DNA from: a virus
IMG/VR virus record: IMGVR_UViG_3300042868_002461
Span: 1 to 21,470 of that record
DNA: 21,470 nucleotides
Reading direction: 5' to 3' (one strand)
In this document: positions 4,604-19,460 of the stretch, one piece after another
Numbering within the stretch: the stretch's first letter is position 1
Layout: each line of letters begins with the position of its first letter
Notes under the pieces: generated by a model
Seen by the model: the letters and a program-made list of their open reading frames with translations, nothing else
Told to the model about the DNA's origin: nothing
The model's database searches: none
Made by a program: the position numbers and the translations under genes

Positions 4604-6640
4604 TTATTTGTTACCGAAACGTGGATTGGTTGGTAGAAATCCATTGTATGGCATATCCTTTGGCTTTCTTTCTACCAAATAATTGTTGCGGACTTTGTAT
4701 CCTGCCTTTTCAGCTTTTGACCAAGCCTGCGTTCTAACATTTGGATTGTTCAAATCAAGACCAAACCCTTTTGCACTAATGTACAACTGCTTGCTCCACC
4801 AATGGCCACAGTTGCCACCGCCTTTGTACAACCAAGCTGAATACGTATCAGCCCCATTAGGCCCCCATCCTGGATTCACTGCCTTATTGGTCATTGCAAG
4901 TATATCTTCTTTGCGATATAGCTTGTCAGCTTGTAGCATTTTAGTACAAAAAGGTCTGCTTACAGATGTTATTTTACCGCTATAACGATAACGTGTGTAA
5001 TATTTCTTTCCATCTATTGTCGCATCCTGCTCACTTGTTGCATTTGGTTTGGCAGTGCCAGTGCTAACTTGATGAATCTCTACTGCATCAAATATGTGTG
5101 ATATTGCTTCATTCTCCGCATCATCCTCATCGTAATCTACATCGTATTCATCAATTAAAATCCAATCCTCATTTGCATCTTCACCGAGTTGTATCAGTTC
5201 TTCTGCTATCTCATCGAGTTTAATCGCATCTGTTTTAGAAATGCTTTGGTGTTCGCACTCAACTTTTTTTTTTTGAACTACCTGAGTGGGATCAATTACA
5301 ACGTTGGAAAGATTATCGAATATCTCGCTGATTTGGACATCGGATAACATCGGGAATGATGCTTTTGTGATTGCTTTCGCACTTGGAATGGTCAACACAT
5401 TTGCAGTAGTCTGTACAATGATTTCAAGGAGTGATGCAATTTGCGCTCCGTTCAATGCTTGACTTGCAACATCAACTGGTTGTGCTACTTCACCACTTGC
5501 ATCTACAACGGTATCATCAGCAAACAAATCATTTTGTACAATTTTGACATTGGCAAACACACCAAATGAGGCTAACACCTCTTCAACTGCGCTTGTAATT
5601 AGTCTTTGAAAAGGCTCAATTACTTGACGCTGAAAAATACGCATTGCAGTTTGCATCTCATCGGTATTACTACCCAATCCACCGCCTGCACGTACACCAA
5701 ATAACAAAGGAGATGTTACTCTATGGCTCACAAGAATTGCCTCCATTGATTGGTCAACCAACGTGGTAAATTGCTTATCCATATCGGATACAGGAAACGG
5801 AGTAAATTCCACACCTCGGTCACGTTCTTCGTTAAAGAATGTCAACACTTTCCCTGCATTCTCAGAACCTTGGATTGACATCTGCAATTGGTTCTTAATC
5901 ATATGCTGCTCCTCCAATGATGGGATGCCATTGTTGAAAGATGCGATGAGTGATGGAAAGAATCCATTGAGAATTAAGTTGACTTGATACTCGCTCAATT
6001 GGCGCATCTTTTCAATCTCATTGATTGCACCAACGTAGTCAGGTTTCGGATAGTATTCACTACCCACCATTAAGCTATGCACGAATAGAACTTGCTTTGG
6101 TTCATATTCATTGGTGTTCACATCAAACATCGGAATGAAATGCGGTGTATTCTTTTTCTTCCGCATATCAGTCCAGTCTCTCGAATACCACACACCAACT
6201 ACATCATCTTCCTCATCACTACAAGCTAACCTGCAATTCTCAAATGGAAGGTGATTGATTTGTGCAATGGTACTTCTGTCCATTGACCAAATGATTTCCC
6301 AATAGAACCCACCCTGCAACTTCAAATCCAATGAGGTTGGATGGATTATTGAATCTAAATTCAAACGGCTAATTTCTTTCACCGCTTGTGGTGTTGACGC
6401 AGTCAATTCACGACCTGCAATCATATAACTAATAGAGTTCACCAATGCTCCGTGTATTGGTGACTCATTGTAAAGTTCAATCAAGTATTGTGGAAAGGCA
6501 TTGCCTTCACCATAGTTAACCCATCCCTTTCTATCTTCCTTTTCAATGGGATCAATTTTAACGTACTTAGCCATCTCAATTTGAGTTGCACCAATGCGTT
6601 GTTTTATTTCGTCAATGTTAGCCATTGTATTCGATGTCAT
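4604..6640 (-). CDS. Portal protein with C-terminal extension
   Basis: The protein has up to 678 residues; the start may be ATG 6640 or ATG 6625 (MANIDEIKQRI), both overlapping the previous gene. Portal features are SPIHGALVNSISYMIAG near residue 60, a long helical stem region and SPLLFGVRAGGGLGSN followed by DEMQTAMRIFQRQVIEPFQR, which matches portal proteins. Portals form the dodecameric ring at one capsid vertex through which DNA enters. The C-terminal 200 residues are extra: an acidic stretch and then SRPFC (561-565), a helix and a conserved WLYKGGGNCGHWW block near 605-615. This resembles a minor-head (MuF-like) module fused to the portal. The portal call is firm, the extension's name is an inference. 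Confidence 0.85.
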   Translation of the reverse strand: MTSNTMANIDEIKQRIGATQIEMAKYVKIDPIEKEDRKGWVNYGEGNAFPQYLIELYNESPIHGALVNSISYMIAGRELTASTPQAVKEISRLNLDSIIHPTSLDLKLQGGFYWEIIWSMDRSTIAQINHLPFENCRLACSDEEDDVVGVWYSRDWTDMRKKKNTPHFIPMFDVNTNEYEPKQVLFVHSLMVGSEYYPKPDYVGAINEIEKMRQLSEYQVNLILNGFFPSLIASFNNGIPSLEEQHMIKNQLQMSIQGSENAGKVLTFFNEERDRGVEFTPFPVSDMDKQFTTLVDQSMEAILVSHRVTSPLLFGVRAGGGLGSNTDEMQTAMRIFQRQVIEPFQRLITSAVEEVLASFGVFANVKIVQNDLFADDTVVDASGEVAQPVDVASQALNGAQIASLLEIIVQTTANVLTIPSAKAITKASFPMLSDVQISEIFDNLSNVVIDPTQVVQKKKVECEHQSISKTDAIKLDEIAEELIQLGEDANEDWILIDEYDVDYDEDDAENEAISHIFDAVEIHQVSTGTAKPNATSEQDATIDGKKYYTRYRYSGKITSVSRPFCTKMLQADKLYRKEDILAMTNKAVNPGWGPNGADTYSAWLYKGGGNCGHWWSKQLYISAKGFGLDLNNPNVRTQAWSKAEKAGYKVRNNYLVERKPKDMPYNGFLPTNPRFGNK

Positions 6641-9953: not shown

Positions 9954-11495
9954 TTACTTTATTAATTTTGATTGGTCAAGAATCTTCTGTTGTGCGTCTT
10001 GAGCGCTCGTCACATTAGTAGCTAAAACATAACTTTGTATCGGTTGTGCTTTTGTTTGTTGGTTGTTTAAAAAGGAAAGGTCAAGTGCAGGTGCAGCAGT
10101 TGAACCGCTCATACCACCTCCACCCATTGCGCCACCTCCACCTCCACCACCTGATGGTGCAGATGCACCGCCACTTGGATTAAATTTAGTTGCTGCGATT
10201 TTGGCAACCTTCGCAAGGCCTGCTGTTATTGCTATTCCTGCCATCAATGCAGGATAACCTGGAAAGCCTATTGTAATTGGTGATGCACTCGCAGTCTTAA
10301 AGGCATTGGTAGCACCTTCGTAAGTTGCGATGGATGCTTGTGCAATACCTAAGGCCTTGTTTATTTGGAAAGACTTTTTAGCATTAACTAAACCGCTATC
10401 AGTAAGGAATGAATTTAAGTCCATCAATGCCCCAAATGCTTGTTGAGCAATTTGTAGTTTTGCCGCTTGATATGCTTGTTCACCTGCTAATTTTTTAGCA
10501 GATGCTTTATCCGCTTCTTCTAATTCAATTTGCGCTTGTTTCTTTGCGTATTCACTTGCATATTGATTTTTAATTTCACCTAATTGTACTGCTGCTATTC
10601 TCGCATTTTCTTGTCTTTGCTTTTCAAATTCAATTTCAGTAAGTGATTTCTTTTGTTCTTCCATGAAGACAACATCACTTTCCTCTTTTAGATATTGCTC
10701 AGTAAGTTTTTTCTTTTTAAGTAAATACTCTTGTTTTTCTTTGGCCTCTTTTTCTTCTAATTGTTTTCTTTTTCTATACGCCTCTTGAGCTTCTTTTTCT
10801 CTCTCCCTTTCTATTTCTTTTTCCTTTTTTAGCTGTTCATCTCTTTGTTTCTTTGCCTCATCTAATCTTTTCTGTTCCTCCTTTGCTCTTTTCTTTTCGT
10901 TCTCAGCACGTTCACCCGCTTTGGAATCGGTAAGACCTATCCAGTCCATAAAATCTACCAATCCACCAATGACACTATCAATAGTTTTTTTGATGAACCC
11001 AAACATCTCACCAACAAATCCTCCAGCTTCAACTAACTTATCAAAATTCATCACAACTGCTGCGATGATTCCACCAATTAAAAAGATTGGATTGGTCAAT
11101 AATGCCTTACCCAAATCCATCATTGTTGTTCCAAATCCTTTGGCAGCTTTTGTGAGGTCGTCAAATTTGAAATCTTTAATCGCACTGGTTACTCCTTGCA
11201 ATCCAGTTTGCGCTGCGCCAAAGTCCAATGAAAGAATAGATGAGCCAATCATCCCAAAGGAGTTGTTCAATCTCTCCAATGGATCACCCGCCAATGTGTT
11301 TACCGACCTGCTTAAGTCCCCTACTTTATCAGTCAGTTCCCCCAATTGCCTTTGCACCTTGTTGTATTCCGCAGTGCCTTCTGGTAACCTTGCAAGTTCT
11401 TCCCTTAATTGACGCATTTGCGCCCTTAATGATTGCGTTTTTTCGGTTGCGTTACCTTGTAATTCGAATTCTAAAACTACCTTATTGTCAGCCAT
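9954..11495 (-). CDS. Tail tape measure protein
   Basis: The 513-residue protein has a coiled-coil-like N-terminus (about 15-70), hydrophobic segments at about 130-150 and 160-180, a long Lys/Glu/Arg-rich coiled coil (about 190-350) and a C-terminal ALGIAQASIATYEGATNAF block with hydrophobic helices (about 380-435) and a Gly-rich stretch (about 440-465), the usual order of tape measure proteins. It sets tail length: at about 1.5 angstrom per residue, 513 residues would give a tail near 75 nm if all were extended. It is shorter than many tape measures. It overlaps a small membrane protein gene upstream by 8 bases. Confidence 0.8.
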   Translation of the reverse strand: MADNKVVLEFELQGNATEKTQSLRAQMRQLREELARLPEGTAEYNKVQRQLGELTDKVGDLSRSVNTLAGDPLERLNNSFGMIGSSILSLDFGAAQTGLQGVTSAIKDFKFDDLTKAAKGFGTTMMDLGKALLTNPIFLIGGIIAAVVMNFDKLVEAGGFVGEMFGFIKKTIDSVIGGLVDFMDWIGLTDSKAGERAENEKKRAKEEQKRLDEAKKQRDEQLKKEKEIEREREKEAQEAYRKRKQLEEKEAKEKQEYLLKKKKLTEQYLKEESDVVFMEEQKKSLTEIEFEKQRQENARIAAVQLGEIKNQYASEYAKKQAQIELEEADKASAKKLAGEQAYQAAKLQIAQQAFGALMDLNSFLTDSGLVNAKKSFQINKALGIAQASIATYEGATNAFKTASASPITIGFPGYPALMAGIAITAGLAKVAKIAATKFNPSGGASAPSGGGGGGGAMGGGGMSGSTAAPALDLSFLNNQQTKAQPIQSYVLATNVTSAQDAQQKILDQSKLIK

Positions 11496-14707: not shown

Positions 14708-16555
14708 TTATGGGCAGTTACCGAATCCAACAGTTACGTAAATATTTCCATTCATCAAACCGCCTCCAGTATAACCAGGCAACACTAATCTAAATGTATT
14801 GGTAACACCAGAAATCGGAGTTCCCCAAACAGCGTTAACTATAATTGGAGTGCCAGGTGTTTGCAAACCTCCGAATAAAATAACACTACCTCCACCAGTT
14901 GTAGTATTTCCAAGCTGAATATTTCCTTGGCGAATTGGTGATACAGGTGTTGTAAAATCATAGTCAACACGTATATAATAAGTTTGACCTGCTACTGGAG
15001 TTTCACCCAAAATATTATTCACCGCAATAACCACATATCTATCTTTTGTGGCATTGACAACTTTAATATGAGCTGCATCACCAACCACACCATTCAAATA
15101 AACTTGAGTCGTTCCTGAAGTTTGTCCAAACACATTATAGTAATCGCACGGATCAGGGCCAGGTATCGGATATTCAGCAGCAGTTATATTTATTGTATCG
15201 TATTCGTTAGCTAATTGAAGTCGCAATGATTGGTTATATTTGCGACTATTCCTTTCACGGCGCATCAAGTAGTTTGTATCTTCAACAACAACGGGAAGAA
15301 TGTTGTAACCATCTACGTTATCATCCACCATCCATACTGACTTTGAATAGAACAAGTCTTTCATCCACTTATATTCACTCTCAGTTACCCAATCGCTTGT
15401 AAGATTGATAAAAGTCTTTGTGATTGGCTCACGCTCGTTTAATGCCCTTGAATAATTCTTGGTATCAAATGGGTTGTCTACATCGGCAGTGTTATAGTTG
15501 CCCAAATAACTCTTGTATCTTTTCTTTTCGACATCAATACTACGCTCATTCTTTTTGATGAAAGAGTAGCTATCCCACCCCCCTAATTGATTTAACCAAT
15601 ACAAATGCACTGGATTGTGTTTGCAGTCCTCATCTATGTAAAATCCGTACTTAGCAGTCACCTCATCTTCTGCTGCATCAATTCCGACAATAGTCCAGAA
15701 GGATGTGTCGTCAGCTTGTTCTTGAGATATATATGCACCATCCACTAAATTCTTCAGACCTGCGGGTATATGCAATAGACCACCGTCAATAAAACTCATT
15801 GGAATGTCAAAGGTTGTGATTTCAGCATAGGCATTGTCATATAATACATATTTGAAATTAGCAATGGTAGTATATGGATAGTTTGAATTTATGAAAGTTC
15901 CATCGTCTGCAATCCAACTAAGAATCTTGTATGCGCTATCCTGCTCACCTGTAACGTTTGACCTTGAGATACGTTGCCAATTGATAACCTCTTGTTGTAA
16001 TGTCGCAGGGATATTGATCCGTGACGCAATGGTCTCAGCATTAAAACCTATTGTGTTATCATAGCATTGAGATAGTGCGATTGGTTTTGTGTCATTGCTA
16101 CCCATAACTAAAAAGTTACTTTTACCTTTGCCATATACGCACATAAAATCGTAAACAACAGTCACTGATTCATCTTCAGTGAACACACCGCCAACATCAT
16201 AACCCTCAAAAAGTCTTATCCTAAAGTTTCTACATAAATTATCATTGATTAATATAGGCTCATTTATTTGCAGTAACACATCATCAGTACCTGTAATGGT
16301 TACATTTGTCGTAACCAACTGGTTAAAGATAGTCTTTGCATTGAACACACCACTACCAACCGAATTTGGTGATATATAAAATTTGTATTCATTTCCGCTT
16401 AACGGATCTGCGATTTCAACAACGTATTTGAACCCACTATTTGCGAACTCAGACGAAGTCATTGTAAATGAGACATCATTGTTTGAGTAACACATTCCTG
16501 TGAATGCGTCCACTCCTTGTGCGGACAATCCTCTGACTGCTGTATTGTATGCCAT
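14708..16555 (-). CDS. Tail protein (distal-tail-like)
   Basis: The 615-residue protein starts MAYNTAVRGLSAQG, and its N-terminal half is beta-rich. Near the middle it has LYWLNQLGGWDSYSFIKKNE, which I recall from a conserved family of Bacteroidota phage tail proteins. The C-terminus (from about 480) consists of beta strands and Gly/Thr-rich turns (GNTTTGGGSVILFGG), like an exposed binding domain. No signal is seen. It is joined to the preceding gp10-like gene in a TAATG junction and is 9 bases before the 1011-residue gene. It is probably part of the tail tip near the tube end; a distal tail or fibre-attachment protein fits. Confidence 0.68.
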   Translation of the reverse strand: MAYNTAVRGLSAQGVDAFTGMCYSNNDVSFTMTSSEFANSGFKYVVEIADPLSGNEYKFYISPNSVGSGVFNAKTIFNQLVTTNVTITGTDDVLLQINEPILINDNLCRNFRIRLFEGYDVGGVFTEDESVTVVYDFMCVYGKGKSNFLVMGSNDTKPIALSQCYDNTIGFNAETIASRINIPATLQQEVINWQRISRSNVTGEQDSAYKILSWIADDGTFINSNYPYTTIANFKYVLYDNAYAEITTFDIPMSFIDGGLLHIPAGLKNLVDGAYISQEQADDTSFWTIVGIDAAEDEVTAKYGFYIDEDCKHNPVHLYWLNQLGGWDSYSFIKKNERSIDVEKKRYKSYLGNYNTADVDNPFDTKNYSRALNEREPITKTFINLTSDWVTESEYKWMKDLFYSKSVWMVDDNVDGYNILPVVVEDTNYLMRRERNSRKYNQSLRLQLANEYDTINITAAEYPIPGPDPCDYYNVFGQTSGTTQVYLNGVVGDAAHIKVVNATKDRYVVIAVNNILGETPVAGQTYYIRVDYDFTTPVSPIRQGNIQLGNTTTGGGSVILFGGLQTPGTPIIVNAVWGTPISGVTNTFRLVLPGYTGGGLMNGNIYVTVGFGNCP

Positions 16556-17130
16556 TATACTTTAATTTTTCCTTGTAAATTTTCCTCAATTGCTATTGTT
16601 ATCTCACCTTTCAATGCCGCCATAAATCTATCATTAAAATCTACCACTGTTTCATTGACTGCATCCCTAAAATAAAACAATGGCTTGATTCCCCTCCGTG
16701 CTATTGACCTTGCTATCTTACTTGCCATCCAATCAGTAGCGTCTTCCTTTGCTTTTGGAGTAGCGAACTTTTTGAACGCCCCATTTGGTTCACGTGGTTG
16801 GATGCGTTTAATCTTCATCCAGTTGCGAATCGCATCTACATCAACAGACTTTTTCTTAAATGAAAATCGAGAGTTGTTATTGCCTTGATAACCATTCACA
16901 CCTTCCTCAACAAATACCGCATATTCGGATGCCGTTCCTTTCGCAAAGAAATCAATTCGTTTATACTTATTGTCATATCGGTAAGTCAATGACTTGCGTA
17001 AGTTATCTGATGCCACCGCTCTGCGCTTCTTTCCGTTCACGGTGCGATAGACACCAAGATTGAGCATAGCACGCTCAACAACCTCCTGTCCAAATTCATT
17101 CATTAATTGAGTGATTGGATTAGTAGCCAT
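16555..17130 (-). CDS. HK97 gp10-like tail completion protein
   Basis: The 191-residue basic protein fits the gp10 type: KSLTYRYDNKYKRIDFFAKG, then SEYAVFVEEGVNGYQ, a basic FSFKKKSVDVDAIRNWM patch and a C-terminal RGIKPLFYFRDAVNETV. The Tyr-Ala-Val-Phe-Val-Glu-Glu-Gly motif is the usual landmark. Such proteins join the tail to the head or complete the tail top. It overlaps the upstream 65-residue gene by 11 bases and ends in a TAATG junction with the next tail gene. It is soluble with no signal. Confidence 0.75.
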   Translation of the reverse strand: MATNPITQLMNEFGQEVVERAMLNLGVYRTVNGKKRRAVASDNLRKSLTYRYDNKYKRIDFFAKGTASEYAVFVEEGVNGYQGNNNSRFSFKKKSVDVDAIRNWMKIKRIQPREPNGAFKKFATPKAKEDATDWMASKIARSIARRGIKPLFYFRDAVNETVVDFNDRFMAALKGEITIAIEENLQGKIKV

Positions 17131-17318: not shown

Positions 17319-18230
17319 TTATATAGTCATTACGCAAGACCACGCACCAAGTCCACCACTGCTTGCCGTTGCATTATTGTTGAATCGAATAGCCATTAAG
17401 TCACCTGCTACAAATGTTACACTATTTGCTGTATTTGAATAAACACCAGACACACTACCTGCGGCAACTGTAATTACTAAAGCTGTATCAACACTATTTT
17501 TTCTAATAGTTAAAACCAAGCTACCTGATGCAGGTTGACTGCTTGTCATAAAGAAATAAAAATTATTCAGTGTACACGCATTAGGCATTGGCAATCTTCT
17601 GGCAGCTTCACTTGGATTACCTGCCACATTGCTAAAATTGGCAAAAGTTACTTGACCTGATGTTAATGTTGCACCGCCAAAAGTTACTTGCAAAATTGAT
17701 TTTGAAGAACCAATTTTTGAATCAATTTGCGTTTGAATGGATGAAGTAACACCACTCAAATAACCCATTTCAGTTGGTGTTGCACCATTTAGATTTTGAG
17801 CAGTTGTGATATTACCAGTCGATCTATTTATAGCAATTGGATTGTCTATGTGTGCGCCTGCGTCATTGTATCTTCTAAGTTGAAAATCCGCACCGCTATT
17901 ACTACCCGACTCAGTGCCATCCACACGCAATGCCCAACGTTGTACATCATCAGTGCGAAAGGAAAGAATCCTACTTACTCCATTGTCCGCATCAATCTTG
18001 ACACGAGTTGTGGACGCACCGCCATCAATATGCAACTTTTCAGCACCTGCGGTTGTACCTATACCAATGCTATCAGCAGTCAGTGAATGAGTACCCAAGT
18101 CAACGTCAGCAGTAGCACCTGTGTAAGGTACACCACCACCACCTCCCGACATTGGTTTCCACGTATTATCCCCTGCCAAGTAATCGGTAGAGGATGCAGG
18201 ATCATTGGTTGTGTATTGCAGCTTTTTCAT
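17319..18230 (-). CDS. Tail fibre or receptor-binding protein
   Basis: The 303-residue protein has fibre landmarks: a Gly-rich linker (PMSGGGGGVPYTGATADVDL) at about 27-46, then SIGIGTTAGAEKLHIDGG and a repeat-like beta region, and LNGATPTEMGYLSGVTSS followed by IQTQIDSKIG, a motif of trimeric fibres. The C-terminus from about 180 is beta-rich with Ser/Ala/Gly and probably contacts the host surface. Such proteins decide host range and are often the most variable part of a phage. It starts in a TGATG junction with the gene upstream. It is a single complete ORF with no visible frameshift. Confidence 0.78.
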   Translation of the reverse strand: MKKLQYTTNDPASSTDYLAGDNTWKPMSGGGGGVPYTGATADVDLGTHSLTADSIGIGTTAGAEKLHIDGGASTTRVKIDADNGVSRILSFRTDDVQRWALRVDGTESGSNSGADFQLRRYNDAGAHIDNPIAINRSTGNITTAQNLNGATPTEMGYLSGVTSSIQTQIDSKIGSSKSILQVTFGGATLTSGQVTFANFSNVAGNPSEAARRLPMPNACTLNNFYFFMTSSQPASGSLVLTIRKNSVDTALVITVAAGSVSGVYSNTANSVTFVAGDLMAIRFNNNATASSGGLGAWSCVMTI

Positions 18231-18700
18231 CAGTCGCCGATGTAAGGAATTTCACACGCATTCCATTGGTAGTCAACTGTGATGTCTATGGACAATTGCA
18301 CACCTGTTAAGACGTGCGAAAACTCTTCAATAAAAGGTTGCGCTGAAATTGGTTTGCCTAACACTACAGACTCATCAAAGATGCTCCCATTTTCGAGCAT
18401 CGCTACAAAGTCACCCGCTAATTGAATGCACTCACTCATTGATTGCCTTTGATATTCAGTCTTTTCCTCCTTATCTCTCGGAAGGTCTGCAAAGTAGACA
18501 TCAAAAGAATACGTTAACGCACCTGCATCAAATGAAAATGAAGTAGGTGTGACGTGCATCCAAGGCCATTCACCTTCCTTTTCAAGGTCAGCTTGACTTA
18601 TTTGTCCGTGTGTGAACCTGCGTAACAATGCGTGGCTATTCGAGAATTGCTCGAATTTACCAATAACAACATTGTAAGTATAAAGAGATGAATCGCTCAT
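18230..18700 (-). CDS. Tail terminator-like protein
   Basis: The 156-residue protein is compact and mixed alpha/beta: TYSFDVYFADLPRDKEEKTE in the middle, a helix (YQRQSMSECIQLAGDFVAML), and a beta-rich end with LTGVQLSIDITVDYQWNACE. This layout matches small phage neck proteins that stop tail polymerisation and join the tail to the head. It follows the chaperone extension by 14 bases and is joined to the fibre gene. The family assignment is from resemblance and position. Confidence 0.6.
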   Translation of the reverse strand: MSDSSLYTYNVVIGKFEQFSNSHALLRRFTHGQISQADLEKEGEWPWMHVTPTSFSFDAGALTYSFDVYFADLPRDKEEKTEYQRQSMSECIQLAGDFVAMLENGSIFDESVVLGKPISAQPFIEEFSHVLTGVQLSIDITVDYQWNACEIPYIGD

Positions 18701-18714
18701 AATGTTAAGTAGCT

Positions 18715-19460
18715 TTAATGGTCATTTTTAGACATCAATTGTTTTTGGAAGTTGTAATAATCTAACCGATAAGAAAGATGTGCAAATATGGTAGACGCTT
18801 GTGTCTCAGTTATTGCATCAAATTTAGTCACATCTCTGTCTGCCAGTTCTTCAATGACGTGAAACCATCCGTAGCGTTCAGCTAATTCGCTTGTTGCAAT
18901 TGTTCCTCCATCATCTTCATCGCCTTCATCAAGTTCTCCTGAATCTTGGACTCTAAAAACGAGAGGGAAGTGGTCACTAATTCGCTTTCGATAGTCGAAA
19001 AAAAAAGCAACGCACCATTAGCAATGGACAAAGGCATTTGCTCAAAGTCCTTTGCATTGGATAGATGATCCGCAGTGTACTGCTGTATTTTATATTTAGT
19101 GCCAATCTCAGATGAGATGGGGCGATAAAGGATGGACAATAGCTTAGGTAGATTCTTTGGAAAGTCTTTGCAGTTGGTATCCAAGTCCAACCATTCACCG
19201 AATGAAATCTTATTGATGTCAGGGATGAATCCGTACCCATTCCACTTGTGCTGATGATTGGCCATTGGATTAGCAATGACCTCACGAAATGCACTAATCG
19301 CTTTCTCCATATCTTCTGGAGTCAACTGTCTAACAAAGTCTTTAGACTGTCCTAAGATAGCGGACACTTGACCAATGTCGTTACCTTCGTTATTAAGGAA
19401 GTCAACATACTGCTTGACCGTTATCGTATTATAGTCAAGGTTTACCTTAATCTTTTGCAT
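18715..19460 (-). CDS. Tail assembly chaperone, -1 frameshift fusion (GT-like)
   Basis: The extension frame is open from just after a TAA (19020-19018) to TAA at 18717-18715, and it has no ATG, GTG or TTG before a GTG about 45 codons from its end. It is one base back (-1) from the chaperone frame. The extension includes DDGGTIATSELAERYGWFHV and a helical end (TKFDAITETQASTIFAHL), the kind of domain seen fused to the C-terminus of phage tail chaperones. A slip would give a 248-residue protein. The candidate sites are T9 (19006-18998) and GTTTTTA (18960-18954). In lambda the equivalent gpGT binds the tape measure and the tube protein. This is the best explanation of the two frames; a sequencing error is the other. 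Confidence 0.7.
18882..19460 (-). CDS. Tail assembly chaperone, zero-frame product (G-like)
   Basis: Start ATG 19460 (MQKIKVNLDYNTITVKQYVD) is chosen over an in-frame ATG at 19496 because it has a GGAGGAGGT Shine-Dalgarno five bases upstream and overlaps the upstream gene by only 14 bases. The 192-residue protein has a helical core with ISFGEWLDLDTNCKDFPKNL and LSILYRPISSEIG, like small tail chaperones. It ends with a coiled helix (FLESKIQENLMKAMKMMEEQ). It would hold the tape measure during tail assembly and not be in the virion. Family from resemblance and from the frameshift arrangement. Confidence 0.72.
   Translation of the reverse strand: MQKIKVNLDYNTITVKQYVDFLNNEGNDIGQVSAILGQSKDFVRQLTPEDMEKAISAFREVIANPMANHQHKWNGYGFIPDINKISFGEWLDLDTNCKDFPKNLPKLLSILYRPISSEIGTKYKIQQYTADHLSNAKDFEQMPLSIANGALLFFSTIESELVTTSLSFLESKIQENLMKAMKMMEEQLQQAN
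18954..19006 (-). promoter_or_regulatory. Candidate -1 ribosomal frameshift sites
   Basis: The minus strand has C then nine T (19006-18998), read CTT TTT TTT TCG in the zero frame. T TTT TTT allows exact re-pairing after a -1 slip. Further on, G TTT TTA (18960-18954) is a second, weaker candidate that would keep more of the conserved zero-frame helix. Both lie between the TAA that opens the -1 frame (19020-19018) and the zero-frame stop (18884-18882). I saw no clear stem-loop downstream of either. Confidence 0.65.

Follow-up and report, generated by a model that had tools for sequence, protein, structure and literature searches.

The locus described here raises the question of how a conserved reading frame that has no start codon of its own comes to be expressed. 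In the window, i.e. the whole 21,470-base virus record that was analysed, the head and tail proteins are encoded by the minus strand. One tail-module gene ends with TAG 18884-18882, and a second frame, -1 relative to it, is open from 19017, just after TAA 19020-19018, to the stop codon at 18717-18715 (100 codons). A sequence-only reading of this DNA had placed the end of the chaperone frame at 18882 and the open -1 frame from just after TAA 19020-19018 to 18715, and both sets of coordinates proved exact. Its further statement that the -1 frame lacks an early start codon was borne out, as neither a start-codon ORF of at least 60 aa nor a usable start codon was found in that frame. A programmed frameshift had been proposed, at one of two motifs within the overlap, CTTTTTTTTTCG (C 19007, T9 = 19006-18998) or GTTTTTA (18960-18954), both of which are present in the sequence. 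For a slip on the T9 run, the first codon after the shift would be TTC (18999-18997) and the extension would run to the stop codon at 18717-18715, giving a predicted fusion of 154 + 94 = 248 aa.

Gene organization of the locus

The features of the locus and its surroundings are listed in Table 1. The capsid and portal genes of the window were recognised by Pfam, and a search with blastn of named phages gave no match to the query. The gene with the overlapping frames belongs to the tail module and lies upstream of the tape measure gene, with several genes between them, and the layout is the same in phage P12024S, in which the gene follows the terminase and precedes the neck-like and tape-measure genes. 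Profile phrog_1538 found the tape measure in only one of 18 relatives, which is uninformative, as tape measure proteins diverge fast.

Table 1. Coordinates of the overlapping frames, candidate shift sites and neighbouring genes in the window
Feature	Position	Strand	Basis or remarks
Zero-frame ORF, predicted short product (gpG-like), P0001	18882..19460	-	192 aa; phrog_32199 E 2e-7; AlphaFold pLDDT 89
T9 run, putative slip site, C-T9-CG, phase CTT TTT TTT TCG	18998..19006	-	heptamer U_UUU_UUU at 19005-18999
-1-frame extension, GW[YF] domain (gpT-like), predicted, 94 aa	18715..18999	-	family alignment; model pLDDT 79; hhalign vs single-ORF relatives
Dual-coded overlap, slip site to zero-frame stop	18885..18997	-	low nucleotide variability T1+12 to +47, close clade
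GTTTTTA, second candidate site, rejected	18954..18960	-	20/41 close relatives only
Next gene, 156 aa, weak relative of P12024S_41, gene order shared	18230..18700	-	pairwise E 1e-5
Neck/tail-completion-like gene	16555..17130	-	phrog_29822
Tape measure protein, 513 aa, downstream of the putative chaperone, same strand	9954..11495	-	phrog_1538 E 2e-15

Elsewhere in the window, the 678-aa portal protein (4604-6640) matches portal proteins over residues 104-363 only and has a C-terminal extension of ~300 aa. A 303-aa protein with tail-spike/fibre-like matches is encoded at 17319-18230, with the chaperone block on one side and the neck-like gene on the other; it is missing at the corresponding place in P12024S. 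The apparent C-terminal part of a large terminase is found on the plus strand (1-576), the strand that does not carry the tail genes; in P12024S and in one of the related loci (L307) the large terminase is located directly before the chaperone gene, on the same strand.

Conservation of the T9 run and of both frames

Each of the 19 close relatives recovered from IMG/VR (89-94% identity) retains C-T9-CG and an open -1 frame, with the stop codon within one codon. Iterated searches yielded a related set of 393 loci, representing 318 distinct contexts, within which loci found repeatedly by overlapping scans were merged, and 56 clusters at 60% identity. Pairwise identity among these loci has a median of 37% and a minimum of ~22%.

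Comparison of the overlap in related phages had been named as a check by the sequence-only reading. It revealed an in-phase T-run of 8-11 in all 393 loci: nine residues in 366, ten in 24, 11 in two, eight in one and seven in none. The run is at least nine long in 55 of the 56 clusters, against 7.3 expected from codon usage, and the Phe codons at the site are exclusively TTT (608/608 in the first 304 loci; 1436/2661 elsewhere in the same genes). The domain that the earlier reading had considered plausible in the -1 frame belongs to a conserved family kept in the relatives: nearly all -1 frames (all but a handful) encode one small helical domain with GW[YF]. Judging by this conservation, both frames are real coding sequence.

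Individual records deviate. The sole run below nine is that of locus L345, with T8 only (GTT TTT TTT CAG). In L301 the -1 frame after the T-run ends at 12 codons, unlike in all relatives, which may be a sequencing error or a broken copy. Record L103 (61,462 bases) has one chaperone gene at 1904-2452 and another, 30 kb away, at 32249-32818, and possibly consists of two joined genomes. A prophage search within one bacterial family detected the locus in 3 of 397 genomes; among 395 genomes sampled from the phylum, it was detected in the centre genome only.

Homologues encoded in a single frame

Cultivated phages that carry a homologous gene as a single ORF of 274-301 aa were reached through a fold search started from the model of the first half. 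These are Flavobacterium phages laban6-1, FPSV-F7 and 2A, Cellulophaga phage Ingeline_1, and a phage recorded as infecting Microcystis. A profile of the virtual fusion aligned with the single-ORF proteins of Duneviridae phages end to end over 236 columns (hhalign probability 98.6, E 4.9e-16), while single-sequence profile matches to such proteins were weaker (1e-5 to 1e-2). P0001 alone matches phrog_25418, the family of the single-ORF proteins (E 6e-4), which includes laban6-1 gp017, Ingeline1_5, the FPSV-F7 and 2A proteins and Mea-Yong924-1. The single-ORF homologues contain the two domains of the fusion in the same order and share an aromatic motif, LFF or LYF, at the junction; the Ingeline_1 homologue is also encoded upstream of the tape measure gene, three genes before it. 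They differ in having one continuous frame without a long T-run, and they apparently make the long product alone. In Ingeline_1, laban6-1 and the Microcystis phage, LFF is encoded by TTA/TTG/CTG TTT TTT G, with six T's, while FPSV-F7 and 2A have LYF at the junction and no long run. Since in-frame relatives keep LFF with T6, T9 would be imposed by the frame transition and not by the amino-acid motif.

In Flavobacterium phage 6H, gp10 (L395, 10352-10927) ends at 191 aa. Compared with FPSV-F7 and 2A (L402/L403), in which the gene is one 293-aa ORF, a stretch of ~36 nt differs; the sequences are 98-99% identical before this stretch and identical after it. The 6H gene may be recombined or damaged, or the record may contain an assembly problem.

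The T9 site and the -1 extension themselves occur in a cultivated virus, Nonlabens phage P12024S/L (P12024S_38/_39), whose protein has ~24% identity to that of the window. The gene is annotated there as two hypothetical proteins, with the frameshift unrecognised. For P12024S_39 (L394, 664-831) the annotated start is an ATG within the -1 extension, and the C-terminal half is thus filed as a separate hypothetical protein.

Position of the frame transition

The comparative data support entry into the -1 frame at T9 (19006-18998) and a fusion that is a real, conserved protein. In several relatives (L276, L224, L160, L300, L174) the -1 frame opens only 2-8 nt before T1, which rules out a shift upstream of T9. 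In the -1 frame, residues F3 and R6 are almost invariant among 53 representatives; their codons directly follow T9 and have to be translated, which rules out a shift further downstream.

The other explanations of the overlap can be weighed against the same data. GTTTTTA is in the right phase in the window, and its use would keep the zero-frame helix beyond T9, the conservation of which had led the sequence-only reading to consider this second site. In the 41-member clade at 80% identity, however, the position is occupied by GTTTTTA in 20 members, by GTATTTA in 17 and by TTTTTTA in four, and a slip there would leave F3 and R6, which lie between the two motifs, untranslated. A shift at GTTTTTA is therefore extremely improbable, and the motif was rejected as a slip site. 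Dual coding explains the zero-frame conservation: the close clade shows no nucleotide variability from T1-3 to T1+11 and little up to +47, as dual coding predicts.

Two separate genes, with the -1 frame translated from its own start or by coupling, would agree with the annotation of P12024S_38 and _39, yet in 45 of 304 loci the -1 frame contains no ATG, GTG or TTG at all, and in most others the first start lies inside or after the conserved domain. Separate genes would also leave the conserved T-run unexplained, and the single-ORF relatives show both halves as one protein; we give this arrangement almost no credence. Equally improbable is a sequencing error, a pseudogene or a phase-variable DNA repeat. 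Homopolymers are prone to error and mutation, but the run is exactly T9 in 20 of 20 sequences of the closest set (the window and 19 relatives) and in 366 of 393 overall, and both frames are conserved across ~22-94% identity. The identity of T9 in every close relative recovered largely excludes a homopolymer sequencing error in particular.

Slippage in transcription or in translation

We consider slippage of RNA polymerase at T9 to be the probable mechanism, in preference to ribosomal slippage of the lambda G/GT type. RNA polymerase would slip on the nine T's, over which a 9-bp rU:dA hybrid forms, and some transcripts would acquire ten U's. Such transcripts would be read into the extension by ordinary translation, and one gene would yield a short chaperone (192 aa) together with a minor, longer fusion (~248 aa), as with lambda gpG/gpGT. 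In bacteria, slippage is reported on 9 A or T, with a hybrid of 9-10 bp (PMC5009743), nine-residue slippage runs are found in many genomes (PMC1088944), and slippage on Tn was described at n>8 (PMC3711429).

The pattern of T's around the two Phe codons points to conservation of run length. A run of at least nine is maintained in 392 of the 393 loci across three codon phases: (i) GGT/GCT/AGT/ACT TTT TTT TTG, (ii) xTT TTT TTT Txx, and (iii) TTT TTT TTT G/C. Where FF is preceded by Gly, Ala, Ser or Thr, whose codons have no T at the second base, the next codon is always TTG, which restores nine; where it is preceded by Phe, the following codon may start with G or C, which leaves nine. When the 3' ends were permuted among clusters, 7.1 runs below nine were expected and one was observed (p 5e-5). 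The tree implies at least 10 switches in the codon phase of the run. Sequence comparison thus indicates that run length, and not codon phase, is under conservation.

The alternative is a programmed -1 ribosomal frameshift in which the P- and A-site tRNA-Phe slip on U_UUU_UUU (19005-18999), as in lambda G/GT. Ribosomal -1 shifting is the established tail-chaperone mechanism (PMC5009743), and U_UU.U_UU.U is listed among the shift-prone motifs in E. coli (PMC4066793). Moreover, U_UUU_UUU, which has the X_XXY_YYZ form, is in zero-frame phase in all 393 loci, so that a ribosomal slip would be possible everywhere; this, like the one T8 locus (L345), counts against polymerase slippage. However, a ribosomal slip leaves the runs of at least nine, with their end-to-end compensation, unexplained. 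Nor do heptamers that should be equivalent appear to be tolerated. In 31 clusters a T8->C change would alter no amino acid in either frame and would produce U_UUU_UUC, which works as an efficient heptamer in E. coli (PMC4066793), but this variant is used in none of them (0/31, P ~1e-7), although TTC makes up 40% of the Phe codons in these genes; no alternative heptamer occurs in any of the 56 clusters. U_UUU_UUU itself is reported to be far less shift-prone than A_AAA_AAG (PMC5009743). These efficiencies are E. coli data and may not hold for Bacteroidota ribosomes.

No signal of RNA structure was detected upstream or downstream of the site in 82 representatives by simple folding without pseudoknots (mean z 0.1-0.16; 0.14 and 0.10 downstream). 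Downstream structure is common, though not obligatory, in programmed -1 ribosomal frameshifting.

In many clusters the amino acids together with the heptamer already entail a run of at least nine (mean P 0.84 by chance). The synonymous evidence for nine is therefore weak, and the argument for polymerase slippage is carried by the compensation and by the doubly silent T8->C position. The 56 clusters are not fully independent; in the five phase-2 clusters FF is always followed by Leu, and amino-acid covariation could mimic compensation. Taken together, the run-length compensation, the lack of a UUUUUUC variant, the lack of RNA structure and the published run thresholds favour RNA polymerase slippage, and we regard the ribosomal mechanism as doubtful. 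From the proposal of the sequence-only reading, the -1 transition is thus retained, with two products predicted and a conserved C-terminal domain added in the longer one. The second site is dropped, and the lambda-type ribosomal slip is called into question by the compensation and by the absence of UUUUUUC.

Predicted role in tail assembly

The layout and position of the gene are consistent with a tail assembly chaperone pair: a -1 ORF without its own start overlaps the 3' end of the first ORF at a slip site, as in lambda G/GT. Pfam and PDB sequence profiles provided nothing informative, no functional match was obtained from PHROG, and Foldseek gave no significant match to the PDB for either half. 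HK97 gp13 (2ob9) was the only chain with Z of at least 2 (VIA), at a weak Z of 2.8 over 65 residues, which hints at a shared fold but does not prove it. A Pfam LepB_N match to P0001 scored 20.6 bits, below the cut-off of 25, and was set aside.

From these observations we infer a role in tail assembly, a slip in transcription and not in translation, and the ratio of the products. In a large group of phages that are mostly uncultivated and probably infect Bacteroidota, polymerase slippage at T9 would then, in the reading we find the likelier, set the ratio of two tail-module (chaperone) proteins in place of a lambda-like ribosomal frameshift, with single-frame relatives that lack the run. If this is true, tail-chaperone recoding arose by two different mechanisms, and the choice between them can be tested with silent mutations. 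The gene is filed as a hypothetical protein in P12024S and its function is unassigned in PHROGs; T9-T11 followed by a GWY domain in the -1 frame offers a simple signature for annotating it.

Comparison with known recoding systems

No description of this case was found in the open-access literature on slippage and tail assembly chaperones, which consisted of reviews of a general kind and of one survey in which the phage chaperone cluster put to the test was HK97-like. In lambda, a fixed ratio of the short and extended chaperones is essential for tail assembly, and this is the classic case of ribosomal frameshifting in a phage. The present gene would share with lambda G/GT, and with HK97 gp13-type genes, a short protein and a minor, C-terminally extended version made through a -1 transition, and, as in lambda G/GT, it belongs to the tail module and precedes the tape measure gene. 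It differs from lambda G/GT in showing no recognisable sequence homology (no Pfam match) beside the weak fold match, in lying several genes away from the tape measure gene, and in a T-run that is conserved by length and not as a heptamer like that of lambda. The run of nine is a feature shared with slippage in Thermus dnaX, IS elements and Shigella mxiE (PMC5009743, PMC1088944), as would be dependence on length, independence of a stimulator and the ordinary translation of a heterogeneous mRNA. Unlike these, the site described here is known from sequence and belongs to a phage tail-module gene conserved in dozens of lineages.
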